A stretch of DNA of 53,530 nucleotides, from contig CALFHN010000016.1 of NCBI GenBank assembly GCA_937876355.1, forward strand, positions 1-53,530, given 5' to 3'. The stretch's first letter is position 1. Every line of letters begins with the position of its first letter. A program made the translations under genes and the position numbers. The stretch is from an uncultured Bacteroidota bacterium. Lineage in GTDB: Bacteria; Bacteroidota; Rhodothermia; Rhodothermales; UBA10348. Positions 1,522-53,104 of this stretch are shown piece after piece. The notes below the pieces were generated by a model. The model saw nothing but the letters and a program-made list of their open reading frames with translations. It was not told the origin of the DNA and made no database searches.

Positions 1522-4500
1522 CTAGAAAGCGTTGAGCTGTACACGTTTCTTGATAACACCAAATTTCAGCACTTTCTCGCCCACATTTGGTACGTCAATG
1601 TGAATGATATACATACCACTCGCGAGCGGCAGTCCATCAGTTGTGGAGAGATCCCATGGGAACATGGCACCCGCGCTATTTTTCTCAAGCGTACGAACAA
1701 GTGTTCCAGCTAGAGTAAAGACGCGAATGGTTGCCTGATTTGGCATGTTTGTGAAACGAACCTGATCAACGAGCGCTGTAACTTCGTATGAAGAAGCACC
1801 TTTGTATGGGTTCGGAACGATTCCAATGTTGTCCAGAGCAGCTTTTTGTTCTGCATCGTCACGGCCGCGAGCGCCGAGACCATCTGTTGACATTGAAAAG
1901 CTATCACCAGGTTGGTTTGGTTTCGTTGTGCTAATGCGGAAAACGCTACCAGCTTCTGGCATATCTGAGTTATATGGTCCTGGAGGGCTTCCACCATTCC
2001 AGTTCATAAACACGATACGGCCAATGACTTCGCCACCATGAGCATACGGATCTCCCGTATTGATCAGGTTGCTTAGCCATGCCAAATAACCTGACTCTCC
2101 TGGAGCCATATCAGAAGGAAGGTACCAGTAGGTCCAGTCCGTCTGAGGGTCATTGGATCCTCCTGAAGCAGGGTGATCGTCACCTGTTACTCCCCAAACT
2201 CCGTCGCCGTTTATATCCAGACCCGCTGGAACTAAACGAACATCGTCTGCAGGATTATCAGGAGTGCTGATACCTGTTCTCCATACTTCAAACGGTAGAT
2301 ACATAATGGCGTTACCGTCATCCGTAAGTGCGCTGAAGCGATCATAACCGTAACATCCTGTTGGCGAAGGAGTAGCTGCAATAGCTTCCCCAGCGTCAAA
2401 CGCAGCACGCCATCCATCATAACAGGCTTGCGTGAAACGGACTTCGAAATCATACGGCATGATATTGCCCCATCCACCGCGACCGAGGATAGTACGATTC
2501 AAGAATTCAGCATAACCGGCGTTTTGGCCTGCGCCTCTACCAGTGTGAATTCCCCACTGTCCGCCATTCGTAACCTGTTGAGCACCGTCTGGCCGACCTT
2601 CCACAGGAAAACCTTGGAAGTCAAAAGCAGCCGCTTGGTCAATAGCGCCGCCGCCATTTGCAACCATGCGGAAACTTAAAAAGCCGTCAGGAGCTCCTGC
2701 TACGTCTAATGACAAACCGTCGAACTGAAGAACATCAACTCCTTCAGGTCCGGCAATACCAGCACTTGCGGCGACCTGAGCCCCGTCAAATACTTTGGCA
2801 CCAGTGTTAACATCTGTAACGTCATAAGTAACAACAGTTGAAACACCCGATTTATTAGCGTTCAGCATGTCAGGGAAAGAAGCGTCGTTATCTACATCTC
2901 TCGAATCATTAGATCCGACAAATGAAACATTGCCCTTTCCTGCCACTTCAGCGGTGAAAAATTCAACTTTGTAAGCGTGACCCGTAATAGCGGCCGCATT
3001 TACAACGTGAATAGTGGTTCCACCATTACCAATGTTGCCTTCTGCACCTACGCCATCAATTCCAGTTCCTGCTGATGCCGCCGCAACGGCTTCAGGAGAA
3101 ATCACAAGAGAGGTTTTCTGCGGAATGGCAGTTACACGTGCGATAGGGCCGTGATACGCTTTTGGATACGAATCGAAGTTGTAAGCATAAGCTTGCAATC
3201 CAAACTGGTAATCACTGTAGTTCGTCAAGCCTGATACCAACATCGAGTGTGCAACACCTGAGTCTGTACCATTGGCAGTAACGATGAGAAGATCTCCACC
3301 GTCTGTGTCAATGACTTTAGTCACGCCGTTGGCGCGATCAAAGGTGGCAATCACAACGCCATCTTGATCAGTTGAGTTAGCATACTGATATACTTTGTAG
3401 CCTTCAAATGCATAGTCACAATCTGTTTCAGAACAGAATGGATCTTCCACATTGTAAGAATCAAGGTAATTATTATCAGTTGCGCGATATCCCCACTCTA
3501 GCAAAATTGATCCATCTGAGCTGGTCGTAGTTACGCGAGGCGCATTTGGAGGGGAAGGCACAACAAAATTGATGTCAAAGGCTGCCTGAGCAACCGTGTC
3601 ATCAGCTTTCATTTTGCGAACAGAGTCAATGTTATCCGCTCCAAAACTTGTTACGATACCAAAAATGATCGTTTGTTCATCTTTTGGTTTAACCGTAAAT
3701 GGTCCTGTTGACAATACGAAACGACGGTCAGCTGCAGGAATTGCTGATCCATTATTGTCGGAGTTGTACTCTGACCAATAATTTGGAGGCATGCCTGGAA
3801 ACATGAACTTTGTTTCGATGGTCGAAAAACCTAAACCGTTACCACCAAGTGTAAACGGTTGTCCGTCTTTCCAACGACCGCGCATGTAGTTATACATATC
3901 AGCGCCGTTACCAGGATCACCCTGAATACCGCCACCATTGCTATAGAAAGCAAACGAAGTCATTTTTAGACGTTCGCCTGGTTCGTCAACGGTACCGTCG
4001 CGGTTGTCATCTTTGTTGTTGTCATCTACAAGAGGACCTTGAAAGAAGTCATAACCAGCTGCAGGCGGAGCCGCACCATAGTTACCATCATCATCATTGT
4101 CAGCATTGTAAATGTAACCCATACCAAGGGTAGAGTCGGATCCTACATAATCATCAAATGCAGCACCAAGGTCAGGATCCGAGAAAACACCCATATAGGT
4201 ATTCTCTAGCGGAACCGAGCCTTTGTACTGAATGCGATATTTGTAGAATGTCGTATTGCCAAGTGCACCAGCGGTGTTAAAAGCAAAAGCAGAACCGTGA
4301 ACTTCCACGCCCATAGGAGGGGTTGAAGACCGATTATGTTGATTGCCTTTATCATTCATGATCCACCATAACATCTGATCGCCTAGGATAGCCGGACGTT
4401 CTCCAGCAGCTAGGTTGATCTTGCGATCAACACGACTGGCTAATGGTTGGCTAGTTAGATCAATCGATTCGCCGTTTGCATCTAGAGTCGGGGCACCGAG

Positions 4501-4953
4501 TCCGGTTGGCCAATCCAAAAGGTCTGGAGCAGCTGAACCACCGCCTACTAGTTCGTTGATATCATCTTTGGAAATTTTCCAAACACGATCCCATGGCAAA
4601 CAATTTGCTGGTGAAGATCCATCATCATTTAGAGGACCTGACCAGAATTCGTACGGGCCGTAAGTGGTACCAGCTAGTCTAAGCTGACCAGCAACTTGAC
4701 CACCCATCCAAATACCCGAAGCAAAAATGGCTTTTAGACCACTTCCTTTAGGCACTTCGTACACATCTGGTGAACCTCTATAGAACAACTCACCGTTATT
4801 GGGAATACGAGCGCGCACATTGTTAATGTCGAGATAAGCCTCGCCAATGGACGGTTCGCAGTTGCCAACGCTCTGGGCTCGAACGCTTGGAGCGCTCAAG
4901 AACCCTATCGCAAGCGCGGCAAAGAGTAAACTTATTTTTCTAATGTTGTGCAT
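1522..4953 (-). CDS. Large secreted protein with FN3-like domain and T9SS type A sorting domain
   Basis: A 1143-residue protein with a signal peptide (residues 1 to about 26, ending VRAQ). The middle (roughly 480-610) resembles a fibronectin type III domain with an Ala-Pro-Arg start and a YKVYQ strand. Several acidic Asp/Asn-rich loops (for example NADNDDDG, DDNNKDDNRDG and DINGDG) look like calcium-binding or thrombospondin type 3-like turns. The last about 90 residues start VPNPYKG, continue through a G-x-LVRTL strand and a W-DLSTTDG turn, and end with an LASGMYIIH strand and a basic tail: the type A sorting domain of type IX secretion. It should be exported by Sec and then passed through the T9SS to the surface. 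It lies between the TonB receptor and the PorV-like barrel on one strand. The substrate or function of the N-terminal half is not recognised. Confidence 0.8.
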   Translation of the reverse strand: MHNIRKISLLFAALAIGFLSAPSVRAQSVGNCEPSIGEAYLDINNVRARIPNNGELFYRGSPDVYEVPKGSGLKAIFASGIWMGGQVAGQLRLAGTTYGPYEFWSGPLNDDGSSPANCLPWDRVWKISKDDINELVGGGSAAPDLLDWPTGLGAPTLDANGESIDLTSQPLASRVDRKINLAAGERPAILGDQMLWWIMNDKGNQHNRSSTPPMGVEVHGSAFAFNTAGALGNTTFYKYRIQYKGSVPLENTYMGVFSDPDLGAAFDDYVGSDSTLGMGYIYNADNDDDGNYGAAPPAAGYDFFQGPLVDDNNKDDNRDGTVDEPGERLKMTSFAFYSNGGGIQGDPGNGADMYNYMRGRWKDGQPFTLGGNGLGFSTIETKFMFPGMPPNYWSEYNSDNNGSAIPAADRRFVLSTGPFTVKPKDEQTIIFGIVTSFGADNIDSVRKMKADDTVAQAAFDINFVVPSPPNAPRVTTTSSDGSILLEWGYRATDNNYLDSYNVEDPFCSETDCDYAFEGYKVYQYANSTDQDGVVIATFDRANGVTKVIDTDGGDLLIVTANGTDSGVAHSMLVSGLTNYSDYQFGLQAYAYNFDSYPKAYHGPIARVTAIPQKTSLVISPEAVAAASAGTGIDGVGAEGNIGNGGTTIHVVNAAAITGHAYKVEFFTAEVAGKGNVSFVGSNDSRDVDNDASFPDMLNANKSGVSTVVTYDVTDVNTGAKVFDGAQVAASAGIAGPEGVDVLQFDGLSLDVAGAPDGFLSFRMVANGGGAIDQAAAFDFQGFPVEGRPDGAQQVTNGGQWGIHTGRGAGQNAGYAEFLNRTILGRGGWGNIMPYDFEVRFTQACYDGWRAAFDAGEAIAATPSPTGCYGYDRFSALTDDGNAIMYLPFEVWRTGISTPDNPADDVRLVPAGLDINGDGVWGVTGDDHPASGGSNDPQTDWTYWYLPSDMAPGESGYLAWLSNLINTGDPYAHGGEVIGRIVFMNWNGGSPPGPYNSDMPEAGSVFRISTTKPNQPGDSFSMSTDGLGARGRDDAEQKAALDNIGIVPNPYKGASSYEVTALVDQVRFTNMPNQATIRVFTLAGTLVRTLEKNSAGAMFPWDLSTTDGLPLASGMYIIHIDVPNVGEKVLKFGVIKKRVQLNAF

Positions 4954-5058: not shown

Positions 5059-8000
5059 TTAGAAGTCAAGACGAACACCAATGCGCGTTAAGCGCGGAAT
5101 ACCGTAGTTACCAAGACTACGAGTACGGTGTAGATACATGGTTTCGGTAACTGGATCAGCACCACCTAAGAACTGTTGACCACCTGCTGTCGACAAAAAG
5201 CCGTCATCATTAGGTAGTCCAGTTGCACGCCATACTCCATTGATGTTTTGTCCGTCCAGAAGATTCTGAACCCAAACAAAAGCAGAAAGAGTAGTACGTG
5301 GGCCAACAGAAAACTTGCGATCAACACGAATGTCAATACGATTTTTCCACGGCATGCGTGCTGTGTTGATGCCACCATCCGGAATTGGAGCTTTCGATTC
5401 AATTCTGCTAAATGGCTCAAGCTGACCAGTGTATGGTTTACCAGAGGAAGCAGTTGCCAATACGTTCACACCGAAGTTTTCAAACAACTTCATTCCACCA
5501 ACAGTTGGGCCTTCACCGGCTCCGAGACGGTAGTCAAGGGATACGTTAAAGGTGTGGCGTACGTCGAAGTCCAATGGGCTGATGAAGTTTGGTGGTGTTT
5601 CATCAATCCAAGCGATGGTGCCTGTGGTATTTGAGGCTGAACCGGTACCCTGAGCAAACGATAACGTGTAGTTAACGTTTGCAGAGACATTGTTTGTCCG
5701 ACGAAGGTCGAAATCAAACTCCATGCCCTTAATGGTTCCAAAGTCCGTATTCCGATAGGAAGTAACTCCGTTCGGATAAGCATCACGTCGGTCATCAATC
5801 TGGATCAGGTCTTCAATCTGACGGAAAAATCCGGAGATTGTAATTGCTGAACGAGCAGATAGACGTTGACGGAAACCTAGTTCATACTCAGTTGTGCGTT
5901 CAGGAGCAAGATCGTTGTTAGATCCGCCGCTGCTCGAGCCTGACATGCCTTCCAAAGACTGGAATGCATTGGTCGAAGGACGCTGAGCGACACTACCATA
6001 ACGAGCAAAGAATAATGCCTGGTCAGTAACAGGGAAAGAAACCCCGATACGAGGCATTACTGTAACTCTAGGCTTGTAGTCATCGAACGATTCGTCAGTA
6101 ACCACACCGTTTGTTTTACGTGGGCTAGCACCTGAAAGAAGTACGTTTCCAGCTATAGTAGGCTGCCCTGAGGCATCAAACCATTTACCTTCGCGACTAC
6201 GGAAGCCTTCGACATTATTACCTAGGTAGTACACAGCGTAGTCATCGCCAATTAGACCTGTTGCAAGACCAGCTGTGCCTGCGCGCTCGACTGGAAGTGC
6301 AGAATAACGGTCATAATAGGTACGGACGTTGTTATCAAAAACATCTACGCGAAGTCCCATATTCAAGACGATATCGCGGAATTCGATTTTGTCTTGAATG
6401 TAACCACCATAATAAATAGGCTGGTGAGGAGCAACATTGTATGCTGACAACTCGGTGCTATTTAAGGCAAGAGGATTACCGAATTCATCAAGGTCATTTA
6501 CGTATCTATTTAGATCTTCAGAATCAACTTCTGTGTCTCCATAAGCGTTATAACCTACGTAGCTCGTGGCGCCTTCTAGCTGCGCCCAAGTTAGTCCGTA
6601 AAAGTCGGATACTTCTTCTCCACTACCCGCCGTAACGCTTTCAGCGCCTGGAGAGTAAAGAGCGTCAGCATCGTCAAAATAGCGGCCAATGGTTCTGCCA
6701 CTCAAGCTATATGAACGGTTGGTTGCCTGTTCAAATTCTCCACCAAACTCAATCTGGTGTAAACCAATCTGAGTAGCAGCCATCGCGTTAAAACGAAGCT
6801 GGGTGTTGTGGAATTGAAAGTATCCAGCAGGACCCGTGCTTCCCGGAGGAGCTACAAGTTTACCGATCGTTTCGCTGTTGTTAAACTTACCATCTTCCCA
6901 GCGATACGTGTATTGCGGCTGATTTGCCATAATAGGTGTATCGTCAGCAGGATCGGCGTTGCCATGATCGTCAACACCAACTTGAACTGAAACGAATTCA
7001 ACGTTTTTGTAACCACGGTTGGTTGCATAAACGTCATTATCAAAGTCGCCCCATCCAAGTACGTCTGCGCGAGATGTTAGCCCAAAACGTGGGTCGTAAT
7101 TTTTACCTGACCGATCGCTGAAATCAACCTGAAGTTGATAAAAGGTCGAATTAGACAGATAATGAGTCCAGGTCGTAAAGAACTGAGCATCATTACGATC
7201 GGATATTCCACCATTTTCTGGCGAGAATACGTTTAACGTAGACAGACCTTCATCTTCTGAAGTAACGTAACGTCCACCTACGCGCATGCGTACGTTTTCC
7301 ATAACGTTAAAATTCAGATTACCGCTCAAGGCCAATCTGTTATAGCCGTTGCCGCGTTTTTTCTTTTCGACCGTAAAGTCGTCTGCTGAAAGTCCGTTTG
7401 CGCTTTCAACGAAGTTGAAATTAACAGAAGCAGCATCAACACCAGCGGGAACGTTAATAACCGTGCCATCGCCAGCAATGATCTGATCGTTTGCAATCAC
7501 GACGTGACCAGCAGCATCAACAGGCAAAAACGTTTCGCCCATAGAAGCAGGTACTGGGATCAAAACCGAGTTACCATCTGCATCCAAACCTTTCAATGAG
7601 GTTGGGAATTCACGTAACTGGTTAAGTAAGGCGTCACTTGCTCTCACCTGACCTATTGCGCGAGGATTGCTATCCCCTTGGTCTAGATATTCAGCTGCGA
7701 AGAAAAAGTTGACCTTTTCGCCCATAACAGGACCACCAAGTGCTACCGAGGCCAAGTTGTATCCGAAATCATCTAGTGCTTCTGAGGTAACGCCCTCAAA
7801 TGAACCAAAAAATTTCGAAGAACCTGATTTCGTAGTAATGTTGATGATACCAGACATTGCGTCGCCATAACGAGCTGAGATGTTACCAATAATCATCTCC
7901 TGCTCTTGAATAGCGGATTGTGGAAGCGCGGTAGTACCGACAACTTTCACACCATCAATGTAGTACGTTACCTCAGCGCCGCGACCACCGCGTACGTTGA

Positions 8001-8490
8001 GTGTACCAGAACCTTCATCACTAACCACACCAGCCTGGATGGCAGCAACAGCTGCTGCACCACGGACTGGTAAGTTTACGATCTGCTCTGCAGAAACGAT
8101 CTTCGGAACACCAACGGCATCCTTCTGAATCAGTGGACGCTCGTATTCGACGACGATTTCTCCAAGATTAACACCTTCTGCGAGTGCAAAGTTAATTTCC
8201 TGGGTATACCCAGTAGAAACTTGCACACCAGAAACTGTTGATTCTTGGTATCCGACGAATCGAGCTTGGACATTATATGCACCAACCGGAACACCGATGA
8301 CGAAATAATTTCCGTCGACGTCCGTTATAGTACCTAGCGTTGTGCCAACTAATATGACTTGCGCGCCTGGAAGTGGATCTCCAGTTCCCGCGTCAGTCAC
8401 AACACCCGCAATTTTACCCGTATTCTGGGCAAATGCGAGGGCCGGCGCAGCTAGTAGCATGAGTACAAGCATGCCCCATTTACGTAACAT
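5059..8490 (-). CDS. TonB-dependent outer membrane receptor with carboxypeptidase-regulatory-like domain
   Basis: A 1143-residue protein with a signal peptide (1 to about 21, ending AFAQ). Residues 24-105 are a carboxypeptidase-regulatory-like beta-sandwich (G-x-V-T-D-x-x-T-G-D-P-L-P-G, then DVDGNYFVIGVP). A TonB plug follows at about 110-220, with TLNVRGGR, YYIDGV and ISARYGDAMSGIINI. The rest is a 22-strand-type barrel ending in an aromatic residue (RLDF). It should move a large ligand across the outer membrane using TonB energy; the ligand is unknown. The start at 8490 is supported by a strong AGGAGG at 8497-8502. It is the first gene of a minus-strand set with a T9SS-sorted protein and a PorV-like barrel. 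No SusD-like lipoprotein is beside it, so it is not a standard SusCD glycan pair. Confidence 0.9.
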   Translation of the reverse strand: MLRKWGMLVLMLLAAPALAFAQNTGKIAGVVTDAGTGDPLPGAQVILVGTTLGTITDVDGNYFVIGVPVGAYNVQARFVGYQESTVSGVQVSTGYTQEINFALAEGVNLGEIVVEYERPLIQKDAVGVPKIVSAEQIVNLPVRGAAAVAAIQAGVVSDEGSGTLNVRGGRGAEVTYYIDGVKVVGTTALPQSAIQEQEMIIGNISARYGDAMSGIINITTKSGSSKFFGSFEGVTSEALDDFGYNLASVALGGPVMGEKVNFFFAAEYLDQGDSNPRAIGQVRASDALLNQLREFPTSLKGLDADGNSVLIPVPASMGETFLPVDAAGHVVIANDQIIAGDGTVINVPAGVDAASVNFNFVESANGLSADDFTVEKKKRGNGYNRLALSGNLNFNVMENVRMRVGGRYVTSEDEGLSTLNVFSPENGGISDRNDAQFFTTWTHYLSNSTFYQLQVDFSDRSGKNYDPRFGLTSRADVLGWGDFDNDVYATNRGYKNVEFVSVQVGVDDHGNADPADDTPIMANQPQYTYRWEDGKFNNSETIGKLVAPPGSTGPAGYFQFHNTQLRFNAMAATQIGLHQIEFGGEFEQATNRSYSLSGRTIGRYFDDADALYSPGAESVTAGSGEEVSDFYGLTWAQLEGATSYVGYNAYGDTEVDSEDLNRYVNDLDEFGNPLALNSTELSAYNVAPHQPIYYGGYIQDKIEFRDIVLNMGLRVDVFDNNVRTYYDRYSALPVERAGTAGLATGLIGDDYAVYYLGNNVEGFRSREGKWFDASGQPTIAGNVLLSGASPRKTNGVVTDESFDDYKPRVTVMPRIGVSFPVTDQALFFARYGSVAQRPSTNAFQSLEGMSGSSSGGSNNDLAPERTTEYELGFRQRLSARSAITISGFFRQIEDLIQIDDRRDAYPNGVTSYRNTDFGTIKGMEFDFDLRRTNNVSANVNYTLSFAQGTGSASNTTGTIAWIDETPPNFISPLDFDVRHTFNVSLDYRLGAGEGPTVGGMKLFENFGVNVLATASSGKPYTGQLEPFSRIESKAPIPDGGINTARMPWKNRIDIRVDRKFSVGPRTTLSAFVWVQNLLDGQNINGVWRATGLPNDDGFLSTAGGQQFLGGADPVTETMYLHRTRSLGNYGIPRLTRIGVRLDF

Positions 8491-18468: not shown

Positions 18469-18516
18469 TCGAACAAGTGCCTTGTCGAACAATTGCCTTC
18501 TTGAACAATTGACTTG
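18469..18516. repeat. Three tandem 16-bp repeats between ccmB and ccmC
   Basis: Three adjacent units (TCGAACAAGTGCCTTG, TCGAACAATTGCCTTC, TTGAACAATTGACTTG) fill part of the 125-base gap between ccmB and ccmC. The first unit contains the inverted repeat ACAAG-TGC-CTTGT. They could be repeated operator half-sites or simple slippage copies; nothing here is coding. Confidence 0.7.
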
Positions 18517-48549: not shown

Positions 48550-49413
48550 CTACGGTAGTGCGTTTGGGCGGTTCCAAGAATCTAGTTCACCCTGCATAAC
48601 GTCTCGTACTAAGCCCATGAGTCTTGGAATATCTTTTCGAGTCCAACCATCAATATTAATGGGCTTGCCAATAACAATATGCATCGTGCCGGGCCGTGCC
48701 AAGCGCGTCTTTTCGTTGAAAAGTTCAAGAGCATTCAAAATCGTCACGGGAACCACCGGGACGCCCGCTGCAATAGCCAGTATGAACGCGCCCCGTTTGA
48801 ATTCTTGAATTTGTGTGCTGTGAGACCGCGAACCCTCAGGAAAAATGGCAACTGAGAGGCCTTTTTGGATTCTTTCACCAGCAATCTGCATCGATTCAAC
48901 AGATTTTTTGGGGTGAGACCTATCGATAAAAACAGAAGGGGAGTTTTTAATCGAAGCACCCAAAAACGGGACCTTAGCCAATTCAGATTTGGCCACCCAT
49001 CCAAATGGGCACGGAATACCTATTCCTACCGCTGGAATATCTAACGCCACCTGGTGATTTATGGCAAATACGTATGCTTTCGAGAGGTCCAATGGTACTC
49101 GTTGAACGGTTTTAACACGAATTGCCATGCCCATGGTCATGGAACGTCCCCAAATTCTTGACCATAATCGAAAAACTCGGATATCCTTCGACAAAAGATT
49201 ATGTGTTACGGATCCAGTGGCGGAAAAAATGGTCGAAACAATAGCCCAAAAAGCTGCCCAATAAAAAAATATCCGCCGAAAAACAGACGGCGTAAGAGGT
49301 TTTGAAACAGAATTTGTAAGATGCGTTGGCAAAAAGAAACCGTTATAATTCAGTAAGCCGATATAACTCAGTGAGCCAATATAATTCAGTGAGATAGCGC
49401 TGTGAATTCCCAC
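48550..49413 (-). CDS. PlsC-like 1-acylglycerol-3-phosphate acyltransferase
   Basis: Up to 287 residues. The acyltransferase motifs are NHQVALD (H-x4-D), KNSPSVFIDR, FPEGSRS and VPVVPVTI. It should acylate lysophosphatidate or a similar lipid at the inner membrane. The apparent start is GTG at 49413, which makes the N-terminus include three copies of a (S/L)L(N/S)Y(I/N)G hexapeptide from a tandem 18-bp repeat; the true start may lie downstream, and no ATG is available nearby. It opens the minus-strand glycan group. Confidence 0.85.
   Translation of the reverse strand: MGIHSAISLNYIGSLSYIGLLNYNGFFLPTHLTNSVSKPLTPSVFRRIFFYWAAFWAIVSTIFSATGSVTHNLLSKDIRVFRLWSRIWGRSMTMGMAIRVKTVQRVPLDLSKAYVFAINHQVALDIPAVGIGIPCPFGWVAKSELAKVPFLGASIKNSPSVFIDRSHPKKSVESMQIAGERIQKGLSVAIFPEGSRSHSTQIQEFKRGAFILAIAAGVPVVPVTILNALELFNEKTRLARPGTMHIVIGKPINIDGWTRKDIPRLMGLVRDVMQGELDSWNRPNALP
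49345..49398. repeat. Three tandem 18-bp repeats at the start of the PlsC-like gene
   Basis: Units ATAATTCAGTAAGCCGAT, ATAACTCAGTGAGCCAAT and a third that diverges after ATAATTCAGTGAGATA lie head to tail. On the minus strand they code for a repeated hexapeptide if the GTG at 49413 is the real start. Copies are very similar at the DNA level, so the duplication looks recent. Confidence 0.75.
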
Positions 49414-49539: not shown

Positions 49540-50178
49540 ATGTATCGACATTTGTTTTCGAAATCTTTTTTTGGCTTGCTTGTGATTGTGATCTGCACTT
49601 TCACCTTGGCCGATCCAGCTGTTGCTCAGTTCAAGGCTGCCATTCATTTGGGAATGACGGGCTCTTCGTTTAGAGGTGGAAACCTCCAAAACAGCTCGCC
49701 AATTGTTCGATTCGGAGGTGGAGCAGCTCTGCGATATGAGTACCCAAGCGGATTCGAATTCGAGACAGGTTTGTTTTACGTGACGAAAGGTTCAGACCTC
49801 GAAGGCACGTACTCTCAAATTCCGATTGAGGGCACTTCGGAGATAACCTACATTGAATTACCGGCTTTGATTGGCTATCGTTTTAAAAGAGAGAGTCGAT
49901 TTAGCCCAAGAATTTATGCTGGCCCGGCCATGGCGTTCAAAACCGACGCACAAATCAAGTTTAATGCAAAAGGGAGCTCAATTGTTCAACAAGAGGAAGA
50001 CCTTACGGTTGAAGACAAAGACCTTGGCATCATGATTGGAGCGGATGTAAATATGGGATGGGGGTCCGAAATACTTAATTTCGGCATTCGTTCAACACTT
50101 GGGTATTCCAATGCGCGCTCAGAGAAACCTGAAATTTACAATACGTCTATTGCGCTCATGATTGGCATTGTTTTTTAG
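49540..50178 (+). CDS. PorT-like outer membrane beta-barrel protein
   Basis: A 212-residue protein with a signal peptide (1 to about 29, ending AVAQ) and an eight-strand-like barrel rich in Gly and aromatic residues: FGGGAALRYEYPSGFEFETGLFYVTKGS, SEITYIELPALIGYRF and a C-terminal strand ending in Phe (LMIGIVF). It fits the PorT/OmpW-like small barrel group. In T9SS bacteria PorT helps secretion, but many paralogues have no known role. The gene stands alone on the plus strand and converges on the M28-like lipoprotein gene with a four-base overlap of their ends. Confidence 0.8.
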   Translation: MYRHLFSKSFFGLLVIVICTFTLADPAVAQFKAAIHLGMTGSSFRGGNLQNSSPIVRFGGGAALRYEYPSGFEFETGLFYVTKGSDLEGTYSQIPIEGTSEITYIELPALIGYRFKRESRFSPRIYAGPAMAFKTDAQIKFNAKGSSIVQQEEDLTVEDKDLGIMIGADVNMGWGSEILNFGIRSTLGYSNARSEKPEIYNTSIALMIGIVF

Positions 50179-51215
50179 TGGCTCATCACTAGTTCTAGCG
50201 ACTTTTGAGCCAGCATAGCAGCGTCTTGAACTAAATATGGTATTCCGATGAGGGGTATCAATTTTTCGCGCCTTACAAGCGGATAAAACATCATTGATGC
50301 GTCTTTGTCCGTCGCTGCTTTGGATGCAGTCAAAATGGTAATCGGCGCGCTAATTCCCTGCTCGAGTAACATTTTGTCCCATTCGCAGGAAGCAATTTTT
50401 GAGTCTTCGAGGACGATCACCCGGACTACATTACTTTTTTTCCATTGAAGGGACCGAAGCACAGAGTCTGGTCCTTGACAGTCTTCGAGGGTCCCTGAAA
50501 CAAAACTGACGAGGATTGTTGGTCCAAGAACGGACCATGTGTCTTGCATCCTTGATATCCGGCGCACCGTTTCCAAGAGCGCGGCCGATGCAACCCCAAG
50601 ATCAGAGCCATCCGTGTACGATGAAACCCCTTGCCGACCTTGACCATCTAGCGCGGCCAAAATTAAAATAAGAGAATCTCGTCTGACCGGAAGCCTTCCT
50701 GGGATAAACCCCGAAATGTGTACTGTAGACGTTGTTACTGTTTCTGTCGACACGACATTTGGCCTCACCAAATACCCGCGATTAGTAACCAAATCTGTTA
50801 CTCTCGGAGAATAAAGGATTTCAGCCACCCCATCTTTGTGACCGACTAGATAATCATCGCCTTGAACCAATCGAAGGGAATCACGGCCAATGAGATTGAT
50901 GACCGCTGGAGCCAAGACCATGATGCGCGAAGCATATTGATGCCGATACGATTTGCCTTGAATGGGCTGAAGGCCAACTTTTTCTAGTTCGGACGATACA
51001 TACGTCGCAGCGCGTAAAAACCCTCGAGTTCCAGTCTCGCGTCCTTCCATTTCAACCGAATTGAATTGAACAATATGGGTTGTTAGGTTATCCGAATTCC
51101 ATTGATTTTCTGGATCAGATGCCTCTTGCACGCTGGTAGCGTTCGGTGCTATGCACCCGCCCATCGCAGAAACGAAACAACCAACGGCAATAAGGCGAAA
51201 TAAAAAACCCATCAA
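50175..51215 (-). CDS. M28 peptidase-like lipoprotein lacking metal ligands
   Basis: A 346-residue protein with a lipoprotein-like signal (Cys21 after AMGG). The opening (HIVQFNSVEMEGRETGTRGFL, then AATYVSSELEKVGLQP) closely follows M28 zinc aminopeptidases. Where active enzymes have the H-x-D zinc motif, this protein has LAALD (186-190), and the Glu-Glu of the active site is replaced around GTLED (241-245). The Asp in TDGSDLGVAS (201-210) remains. It therefore looks like a catalytically dead member, perhaps a binding protein, or a new metal arrangement. Confidence 0.7.
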   Translation of the reverse strand: MMGFLFRLIAVGCFVSAMGGCIAPNATSVQEASDPENQWNSDNLTTHIVQFNSVEMEGRETGTRGFLRAATYVSSELEKVGLQPIQGKSYRHQYASRIMVLAPAVINLIGRDSLRLVQGDDYLVGHKDGVAEILYSPRVTDLVTNRGYLVRPNVVSTETVTTSTVHISGFIPGRLPVRRDSLILILAALDGQGRQGVSSYTDGSDLGVASAALLETVRRISRMQDTWSVLGPTILVSFVSGTLEDCQGPDSVLRSLQWKKSNVVRVIVLEDSKIASCEWDKMLLEQGISAPITILTASKAATDKDASMMFYPLVRREKLIPLIGIPYLVQDAAMLAQKSLELVMSH

Positions 51216-51604: not shown

Positions 51605-52972
51605 TTAATTCTTTGAACGCGCAATGGATGTCATACCTACCCATACCGAGCTACTATTGGTACCCGATGGTACTTTTTTAGCGCTTTTACTACCACTAGA
51701 TGCGTTCATCACAGCCTTTCTAACGTCATCAGGAGTCGCTGAAGGGAACTGAGCCAAATACAAAGCTGCGGCTCCAGTCACGTGCGATGCGGACATGGAG
51801 GTACCACTCATGGTAGAATAAGCGTATCCAGGAGCTAGCGAAAAAACATCTTCACCTGGCGCAAGAAGATCTACAGACGAGCCGAAATTTGAAAACCATG
51901 AAAACTTTCCGTTTTTCCCGTATGACCCAACGGTAAGTGCATCTTCCACGTGTGCAGGAGTCACAAGTCCTGAGTCTGTGGATTTATTTCCAGCAGCAAC
52001 AACCACCGTAATTCCAGCATCAATGACTGCCTGAACGGCATCGTCTAGTGCTGTGCTTCCAGCCCCGACTTCAACGCCAAGGCTTAGATTTACTACCGCA
52101 GGACTGCCAGGATTATTTTGCTTCCACCTGAGAACATCTTCCAGAGCAGCTACTACGTAAGTATCGTCACTTATTCCATCGTCGTTAAATACCCGATAAT
52201 TGTGGATTCGAGCCCCTGGAGCAATGCCTACAACTCCCCTATCGTCGTCAATCCCACCTATGATTCCTGCAATATTGGTTCCATGACCATCTGCGTCATA
52301 GGCATTCCCTGAGCCGGAGTAGTCACGAGACTCAACAACATTTACGTCGGGGCTGGACACGCCTGTATCAATCAGGAAAACATCCACATCAACAGAACCT
52401 TGCCCGTCTCCAGAAATTGCCCAACTCTTGGTACCTCCAACATCCGAAACGGACCATGGAATTACCTGACGAGATGATGTCTTTTTCATTTGACCTGGAT
52501 TCATTGAGATCGGAAACACAGGTTCAACCCAGTCGATGGTCTCGTCATTTGCCATTTCAGCCAAAAACTCGTCTAGGTGGTCGGTAGCAACCCAAACGGA
52601 GTATCCATAAAATGTATCAGTGAATTCATAACGATCCACAATTTTGTAACGATCAACAATCTTGTATCGGTCTACAATCTTGTATCGATCCACAATTTTG
52701 TATCTATCGACGATTTTATAGCGATCCACAATCTTATACGGATTGATAGCAAATACAACAGCCGTTAAATCGCCGTCCTTTCCTGCAGCCCTTACTGCAC
52801 TAGCGACTAGGTGCTGATTTCGAATTTTCGAAGTTGAGGTCAAAATTTCTGTGGCGGTGAGATCGCTTTGAGTATCAACCATTTGGTCCATACATCCTGA
52901 AAACGTTAGGAAAACGAACGCAACAACCGAATACCTCAAAAGAGGTCCAATTCCGAATTTAAATACCGACAT
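51605..52972 (-). CDS. Subtilisin-like (S8) serine protease lipoprotein with hexapeptide repeats
   Basis: About 455 residues from the ATG at 52972 (a GTG at 53005 would add 11; residue numbers here count from it). A lipoprotein-like signal ends at Cys38. An I9-type inhibitor pro-region (about 80-165) is interrupted by six copies of YKIVDR (90-125) and resumes with FYGYSVWVATDHLDEFLAEM and IDWVEPVFP. The catalytic domain has Asp213 (FLIDTGV), His241 (DGHGTN), the oxyanion Asn in VAAGN and Ser403 (GTSMSASH). It should be an active, surface or periplasmic protease, released from its pro-region after folding. There is no T9SS tail. What the repeat does is unknown. Confidence 0.92.
   Translation of the reverse strand: MSVFKFGIGPLLRYSVVAFVFLTFSGCMDQMVDTQSDLTATEILTSTSKIRNQHLVASAVRAAGKDGDLTAVVFAINPYKIVDRYKIVDRYKIVDRYKIVDRYKIVDRYKIVDRYEFTDTFYGYSVWVATDHLDEFLAEMANDETIDWVEPVFPISMNPGQMKKTSSRQVIPWSVSDVGGTKSWAISGDGQGSVDVDVFLIDTGVSSPDVNVVESRDYSGSGNAYDADGHGTNIAGIIGGIDDDRGVVGIAPGARIHNYRVFNDDGISDDTYVVAALEDVLRWKQNNPGSPAVVNLSLGVEVGAGSTALDDAVQAVIDAGITVVVAAGNKSTDSGLVTPAHVEDALTVGSYGKNGKFSWFSNFGSSVDLLAPGEDVFSLAPGYAYSTMSGTSMSASHVTGAAALYLAQFPSATPDDVRKAVMNASSGSKSAKKVPSGTNSSSVWVGMTSIARSKN
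52631..52738. repeat. Six 18-bp units coding for YKIVDR in the S8 protease pro-region
   Basis: Six in-frame units give exactly the same hexapeptide. At the DNA level they differ at most third positions: Val uses GTG, GTC, GTA and GTT, Arg uses CGC, AGA, CGA and CGT, and Tyr, Lys, Ile and Asp also vary. So the repeat is old and held constant as protein. Confidence 0.92.
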
Positions 52973-53104
52973 AAATTCCACCGAGGGATAGTGACTGAAA
53001 TACACCCTACCGATCTGAGAAAAAGGTAGGGTTTCAGTGCGAGTATCGGCGAAAACGAATCAAACATTAAGTTCATATTTACAATGACTTAAATAAAAGA
53101 AAAA

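Follow-up and report, generated by a model that had tools for sequence, protein, structure and literature searches.

Pro-domains of the I9 type, which ordinarily act as chaperone and inhibitor of their protease and are found in pro-subtilisin E (3whi) and pro-Tk-subtilisin, combine a beta-alpha-beta-beta-alpha-beta fold with an S8 catalytic domain. The same architecture is predicted for a lipoprotein encoded in the stretch of DNA analysed here (the window; 53,530 nucleotides, contig CALFHN010000016.1, from an uncultured Rhodothermales bacterium). In contrast to the known I9 pro-domains, however, the family to which this protein belongs has helix alpha1 replaced or extended by two to seven near-identical hexads. 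A subtilase pro-domain has also gained a lineage-specific addition in Plasmodium Sub1, where it has a regulatory role: an extra pro-domain subunit, the belt, drives dimerisation and autoinhibition (PMC10936178). Unlike the Rhodothermales addition, which sits within the I9 domain and whose effect is putative, the belt forms its own N-terminal subunit and has no hexad array.

Polyubiquitin genes encode identical tandem protein units that show strong synonymous divergence and undergo birth-and-death turnover under purifying selection. The hexad array likewise consists of identical units over synonymous divergence, but polyubiquitin units are released as folded domains, whereas those of Rhodothermales are hexapeptides within a pro-domain. 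Units conserved between orthologues, as seen here, are also a feature of the fast horizontal and slow vertical repeat evolution described by Persi, Wolf, and Koonin in 2016 (PMC5120217). Unlike in that pattern, the units here are also identical within the protein at synonymous saturation.

Among structural repeats, the left-handed beta-helix has the hexapeptide consensus [LIV]-[GAED]-x2-[STAV]-x. By inspection, no register of YKIVDR, the unit in the window, fits this consensus, and there is no hexapeptide-repeat Pfam match. A six-residue period is nevertheless common to the array, the left-handed beta-helix, and the alpha/beta coiled coils, and the authors of the latter note that no natural coiled coil made solely of hexads has been reported (PMC4786415). 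The alpha/beta coiled coil is a trimer with beta-layers at six- or nine-residue spacing, whereas the window array is known from its sequence and from single-chain models. A literature search found no publication or experiment on this repeat, and the array is apparently undescribed as a pro-domain element.

The gene and its array

The array is carried by the gene for an S8 lipoprotein, a putative surface protease, on the minus strand. The listed open reading frame (51605-53005) opens with a GTG at 53005 and encodes 466 residues; judged from the sequence, the ATG at codon 12 (52972), which precedes the lipobox, is the likelier start and would give 455 residues. The features of the gene, from N terminus to C terminus, are as follows.

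51605-52972, minus strand: S8 (subtilase) lipoprotein gene (open reading frame; PF00082, E=2.6e-40; lipobox after the ATG)
52892-52894, minus strand: lipobox cysteine (FLTFSGC-MDQ), predicted lipid anchor (from sequence; the C-x-D motif recurs in relatives)
52520-52774, minus strand: predicted I9-like pro-domain core (AlphaFold2 DSSP; best Foldseek match 3whi)
52745-52774, minus strand: predicted strand beta1 (AlphaFold2 DSSP)
52631-52738, minus strand: array of six YKIVDR units at the predicted position of I9 helix alpha1, entering strand beta2 with its last unit (sequence, AlphaFold2, and paralogue comparison)
52622-52639, minus strand: predicted strand beta2 (AlphaFold2 DSSP)
52586-52606, minus strand: predicted strand beta3 (AlphaFold2 DSSP)
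52547-52585, minus strand: predicted helix alpha2 (AlphaFold2 DSSP)
52520-52537, minus strand: predicted strand beta4 (AlphaFold2 DSSP)
52466-52471, minus strand: predicted maturation junction near SSR / QVIPW (aligned to the mature subtilisin N terminus)
52367-52369, minus strand: catalytic Asp, just upstream of the Peptidase_S8 match
51698-52342, minus strand: Peptidase_S8 catalytic domain match (PF00082)
52283-52285, minus strand: catalytic His, within the Peptidase_S8 match
51797-51799, minus strand: catalytic Ser, within the Peptidase_S8 match

The PF00082 domain with its Asp, His, and Ser motifs (DTG, GHGT, and GTSM) places the protein in peptidase family S8. The region profile matches mature subtilisins from their N terminus, beginning at residue 2 in the case of mature M-protease.

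The original prediction of six consecutive identical YKIVDR units at 52631-52738, which are residues 90-125 of the 466-residue protein, proved exact to the base, as did the codon mix that it described. Val is encoded by four codons (GTG, GTC, GTA, and GTT) and Arg by four (CGC, AGA, CGA, and CGT), with two codons each for Tyr, Lys, Ile, and Asp. Any two units differ at between one and six of 18 nucleotides, and every one of these differences is synonymous. Tandem Repeats Finder picks up the array independently (score 125-145); the 54-bp period that it reports has no clear support in the distances between units. The mean codon difference per unit pair is 3.67 nucleotides, against 3.83 expected for independent draws from the gene's own usage, and because the two values match, no trace of a recent duplication is left. 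A search of the same genome for further arrays found this one only.

Arrays that have been recently amplified do occur elsewhere in the family (L041, L048, and L105), and recent slippage or an assembly error could be invoked for the window array as well. Its codon divergence lies at the independent expectation, however, and the same six units are found in four independent genomes, since three further species, each known from a separate metagenome-assembled genome (MAG), have exactly six. This refutes such an origin for the genus and leaves it a negligible probability. The tandem repetition in the pro-region of this S8 lipoprotein is genuine at the protein level, and Rhodothermales S8 proteases contain many such arrays, each specific to its lineage.

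Other observations in the window concern neighbouring and more distant genes. Adjoining the S8 gene is a lipoprotein gene (50175-51215) whose product has an N-terminal part (NSVEMEGRETGTRG) that is M28 peptidase-like by eye and has no Pfam match. An 18-bp tandem repeat of 2.8 copies (49344-49393), encoding NYIGSLSYIGLLNY, is located at the start of an acyltransferase open reading frame (48550-49413), the listed start of which is probably too far upstream. A 16-bp tandem repeat (TCGAACAATTGCCTTG, three copies) is situated between two open reading frames at 18469-18516. The adjacent open reading frames 1522-4953 and 5059-8490 are equal in length (1143 aa) but unrelated: the latter encodes a TonB-dependent receptor, while the former has only a weak C-terminal match to a FlgD Ig-like domain.

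Predicted fold of the pro-domain

Supplied with 28 family sequences, AlphaFold2 confidently models the single chain as a pro-subtilisin (pTM 0.89). A beta-alpha-beta-beta-alpha-beta fold is predicted directly N-terminal to the S8 domain, with its C-terminal end running on to the maturation site, and Foldseek returned unprocessed pro-subtilisin E (3whi) as the best PDB match both for this model and for that of L045, a family member with imperfect units. The location of the repeat in an I9-like pro-domain, originally proposed from the sequence, is thus borne out by the predicted fold and its structural match. Pfam I9 (PF05922) has no match in the window protein; it matches five of 28 relatives at E values of up to 0.5 (best 3.8e-4), and three paralogues with one or two copies of the motif reach 14.6-17.9 bits, under the cut-off of 21.2.

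In the model, the array lies between beta1 (model residues 19-28) and beta2 (64-69) and is predicted to fill the position of alpha1. Residues 36-56 are mostly at pLDDT <50, and at this level the array of the window protein could be flexible. The L045 model shares this fold; its array forms two short helices, and its final unit falls in beta2.

These models also bear on the suggestion that the units stack in register as a beta-solenoid or amyloid-like polymer, through which pro-domains would polymerise on the cell surface. The homogeneity of the units, their concerted switches at residues 2 and 3, as in residue ladders, and their beta-branched content are all in keeping with such a structure. 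AlphaFold2 is inclined to predict beta-solenoids with confidence when repeats are perfect (PMC11795689) and, although it is not decisive for repeats of this kind, predicts none here despite that bias: the array is at pLDDT <50 in the window protein and helical in the imperfect L045. Moreover, array sizes do not follow multiples of two or three, and a beta-solenoid or amyloid-like polymer is considered improbable.

Selection within the genus

Each of the three other species of the genus, in which the protein is 81, 75, and 71% identical, has six YKIVDR units. Across the four species, all 36 array residues are invariant; the proportion is lower, at 49 of 69, in the pro-domain outside the array (Fisher p = 1.2e-4) and, at 224 of 354, in the remainder of the aligned protein (p = 2.8e-7). 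Synonymous differences between species amount to 0.63-1.0 per site in the array, at or near saturation, while amino-acid changes are zero, the single 'non-synonymous' counts being path effects of AGA versus CGN. Strong purifying selection therefore acts on the protein sequence of the array in the genus. Homogenisation by conversion is excluded at this level because the codons would have been homogenised too. When units were compared by position across species, those at matching positions were not significantly more alike than others (p = 0.12), which is expected since synonymous sites are saturated. No array was found in the same-genus genomes G003 and G004; as such genomes are mostly MAGs, this absence means little.

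Arrays across Rhodothermales

Related S8 proteins contain 41 arrays of two to seven units, nearly all in Rhodothermales, a count that depends on the regular expression used (a relaxed hexad pattern). They were drawn from 148 related genomes, named genome contigs, an array search in the order, and fetched paralogues; L065 (YKFFRR x3), from a Bacteroidetes MAG, is of doubtful placement in Rhodothermales. Units follow the pattern [Y/F]-x-[I/V/L]-[L/V]-[D/E]-R and are mostly uniform within a protein but different between lineages. Because the search pattern required Arg at position 6, this residue provides no evidence of conservation in the 41-array set; three unit arginines are, however, invariant in an independent alignment of 27 sequences. 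Outside S8 genes, no array was confirmed in 114 genomes of the order or in a 396-genome sample of the phylum. Weak non-S8 matches (E>=0.004) were confined to two genomes of family f27, and one of these stems from a single unit that matches a MotA/ExbB-like protein by chance.

YKIVDR occurs six times in clade g1 and three times, with one variant, in L040 and L042. The sister clade g9 (joint support 100/98) has YEVVDR x5-6, g3 has YKVLDR x4 plus one variant (five units), and L043 has YRILER x6 plus one variant. Further unit types are YKILDR, YRILDR, YKVLER/YKVIER, and FKVLER, and some arrays drift, as in L018 (YGVVER FSVLER YKVLER YHVVER) and L051 (YAIVQR YAIFER YALLQR). Position 2 is Lys in every unit of g1 and Glu in every unit of g9, giving a net charge per unit of +1 and -1, respectively; this reversal between sister clades makes simple charge-based binding unlikely to be the conserved function. 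Unit number moves in single steps (2, 3, 4, 5, 6, and 7).

Long selection on the exact peptide, as first proposed, thus holds within the genus, where residues are invariant over saturated synonymous sites, but finds no support as a general rule for peptide, number, and phase, since a sister genus has YEVVDR, another YKVLDR, and others drift. Beyond the genus, what is conserved is the hydrophobic/acidic/Arg pattern rather than the precise peptide, its copy number, or its net charge.

Synonymous divergence between units is low in some arrays, at 0.33 (L041), 0.38 (L048), and 0.32 (L105) of expectation. The contrast that had been drawn between the window array and the products of slippage was therefore overstated: the g1 array is indeed old, but these cases indicate that duplication-type turnover both builds and rebuilds arrays and goes on in the family. 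Turnover followed by long stasis accounts for units that are homogeneous yet differ by lineage, and whole arrays appear to have been replaced together between lineages (e.g., YKIVDR versus YEVVDR).

A constant unit number (six in g1 and five in g3) would suit an extended spacer or stalk, in which array length sets the distance or orientation of the anchor and I9 domain relative to the protease or a partner. The array, however, is enclosed by two strands of a single sheet within the I9 domain, and a longer array would not move anchor and domain apart; nor would a spacer require identical residues, and this role seems quite improbable.

Origin from helix alpha1

Single-copy paralogues (the second genes of L105 and L058, L120, and L060) have [K/R]VLERY or a similar motif at alpha1, and for this reason the unit is best read as an amplified alpha1. 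The array very probably arose when the alpha1 segment of the I9 domain ([K/R]-[V/I]-[L/V]-[E/D]-R-[Y/F]) was amplified in tandem. The first copy would extend alpha1, the last would enter beta2, and the middle copies would occupy the beta1-beta2 crossover, which would correspond to the sheet face pointing away from the protease in known pro-subtilisins. Unit duplication and loss would then turn arrays over, such that all units switch together between lineages, after which purifying selection would fix each unit as its codons diverge.

The same site has also been amplified with other periods: approximately 10 residues (GVTRRVLEEY) in the first gene of L058 and in L062, and 14 residues (DPYRIIERYGEI...) in L030, and also in L032 and L110. 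These periods, the free variation of unit number in single steps, and the low AlphaFold2 confidence of the array would all be expected of tolerated filler, that is, of a permissive alpha1-beta2 crossover that gathers unit duplications and has no role other than not disturbing the I9 fold. Filler leaves full conservation unexplained: residue identity is 100% at synonymous saturation, above that of the rest of the pro-domain and of the aligned protein, and the Arg and acidic pattern is conserved across the order. Mere tolerance is thus rather unlikely.

A multi-copy peptide precursor, from which proteolysis at Arg-Tyr would free copies of a hexapeptide signal in the manner of pheromone or RiPP precursors, would fit the identical units, the lineage-specific sequences, the Arg-[Y/F] boundary, and a pro-domain that is expected to be cleaved off. 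All units differ in L018, L045, and L051, however, so identical cores are not a property of the family, and paralogues already possess the motif once, as helix alpha1. The two window neighbours that were tested (the peptidase-like 50175-51215 and an OMP, 49540-50178) were, in addition, not found within 3 kb of array genes in relatives. A precursor function is very improbable.

Several further observations concern the paralogues. L058:446-2008 and L062:2391-3500 are S8 paralogues with pro-region repeats of approximately 10 residues (GVTRRVLEEY and variants), and the L058 gene has a weak match, below the cut-off, to PF25296 'Decapeptide repeat region' (E=0.0015). Hexad-like stretches (e.g., ILERYGLLERFALMERF) lie just before the catalytic GHGT His in L058:3028-4275 (the second gene), L060:2899-3864, and L059:2998-4215, all three of which have only one alpha1 motif in the pro-domain. 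KVLERY is also found ahead of strand beta1 in some paralogues (L105, L117, and L120).

A proposed role in the pro-domain

The best explanation, to which we assign a probability of roughly 0.45, is that the alpha1 segment of the I9 domain was amplified and that protein-level selection has maintained the resulting array as a repeated structural or contact element, through which folding, self-contact, or inhibition by the pro-domain is tuned. Because the units are equally constrained and any whole number of them is tolerated, they probably repeat one contact, either unit to unit in one pro-domain or between neighbouring lipid-anchored pro-domains. An elongated repetitive array would stabilise or cluster the pro-domain, and would thereby determine for how long the enzyme is chaperoned and inhibited by its tethered I9 domain.

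A bolder version, and a long shot, is that the hexad array is a hitherto undescribed self-associating fold unit (e.g., a hexad-only alpha/beta coil or a stack of short helices) that clusters lipid-anchored I9 pro-domains and locks the S8 proteases, having been amplified repeatedly with different periods in Rhodothermales, with short hexad inserts also present beside the catalytic His in paralogues.

With regard to the amplified alpha1 segment, arrays of one to seven units, in several unit sequences on one scaffold, constitute a compact natural series for measuring directly how the number of repeats affects the folding, inhibition, and self-association of a protease pro-domain. Among bacteria, they are also a clear example in which, for very short repeats, birth-and-death turnover can be told apart from purifying selection: a single piece of a subtilase pro-domain has been amplified into homogeneous arrays across an order, with units that are frozen within the genus and replaced wholesale between genera.
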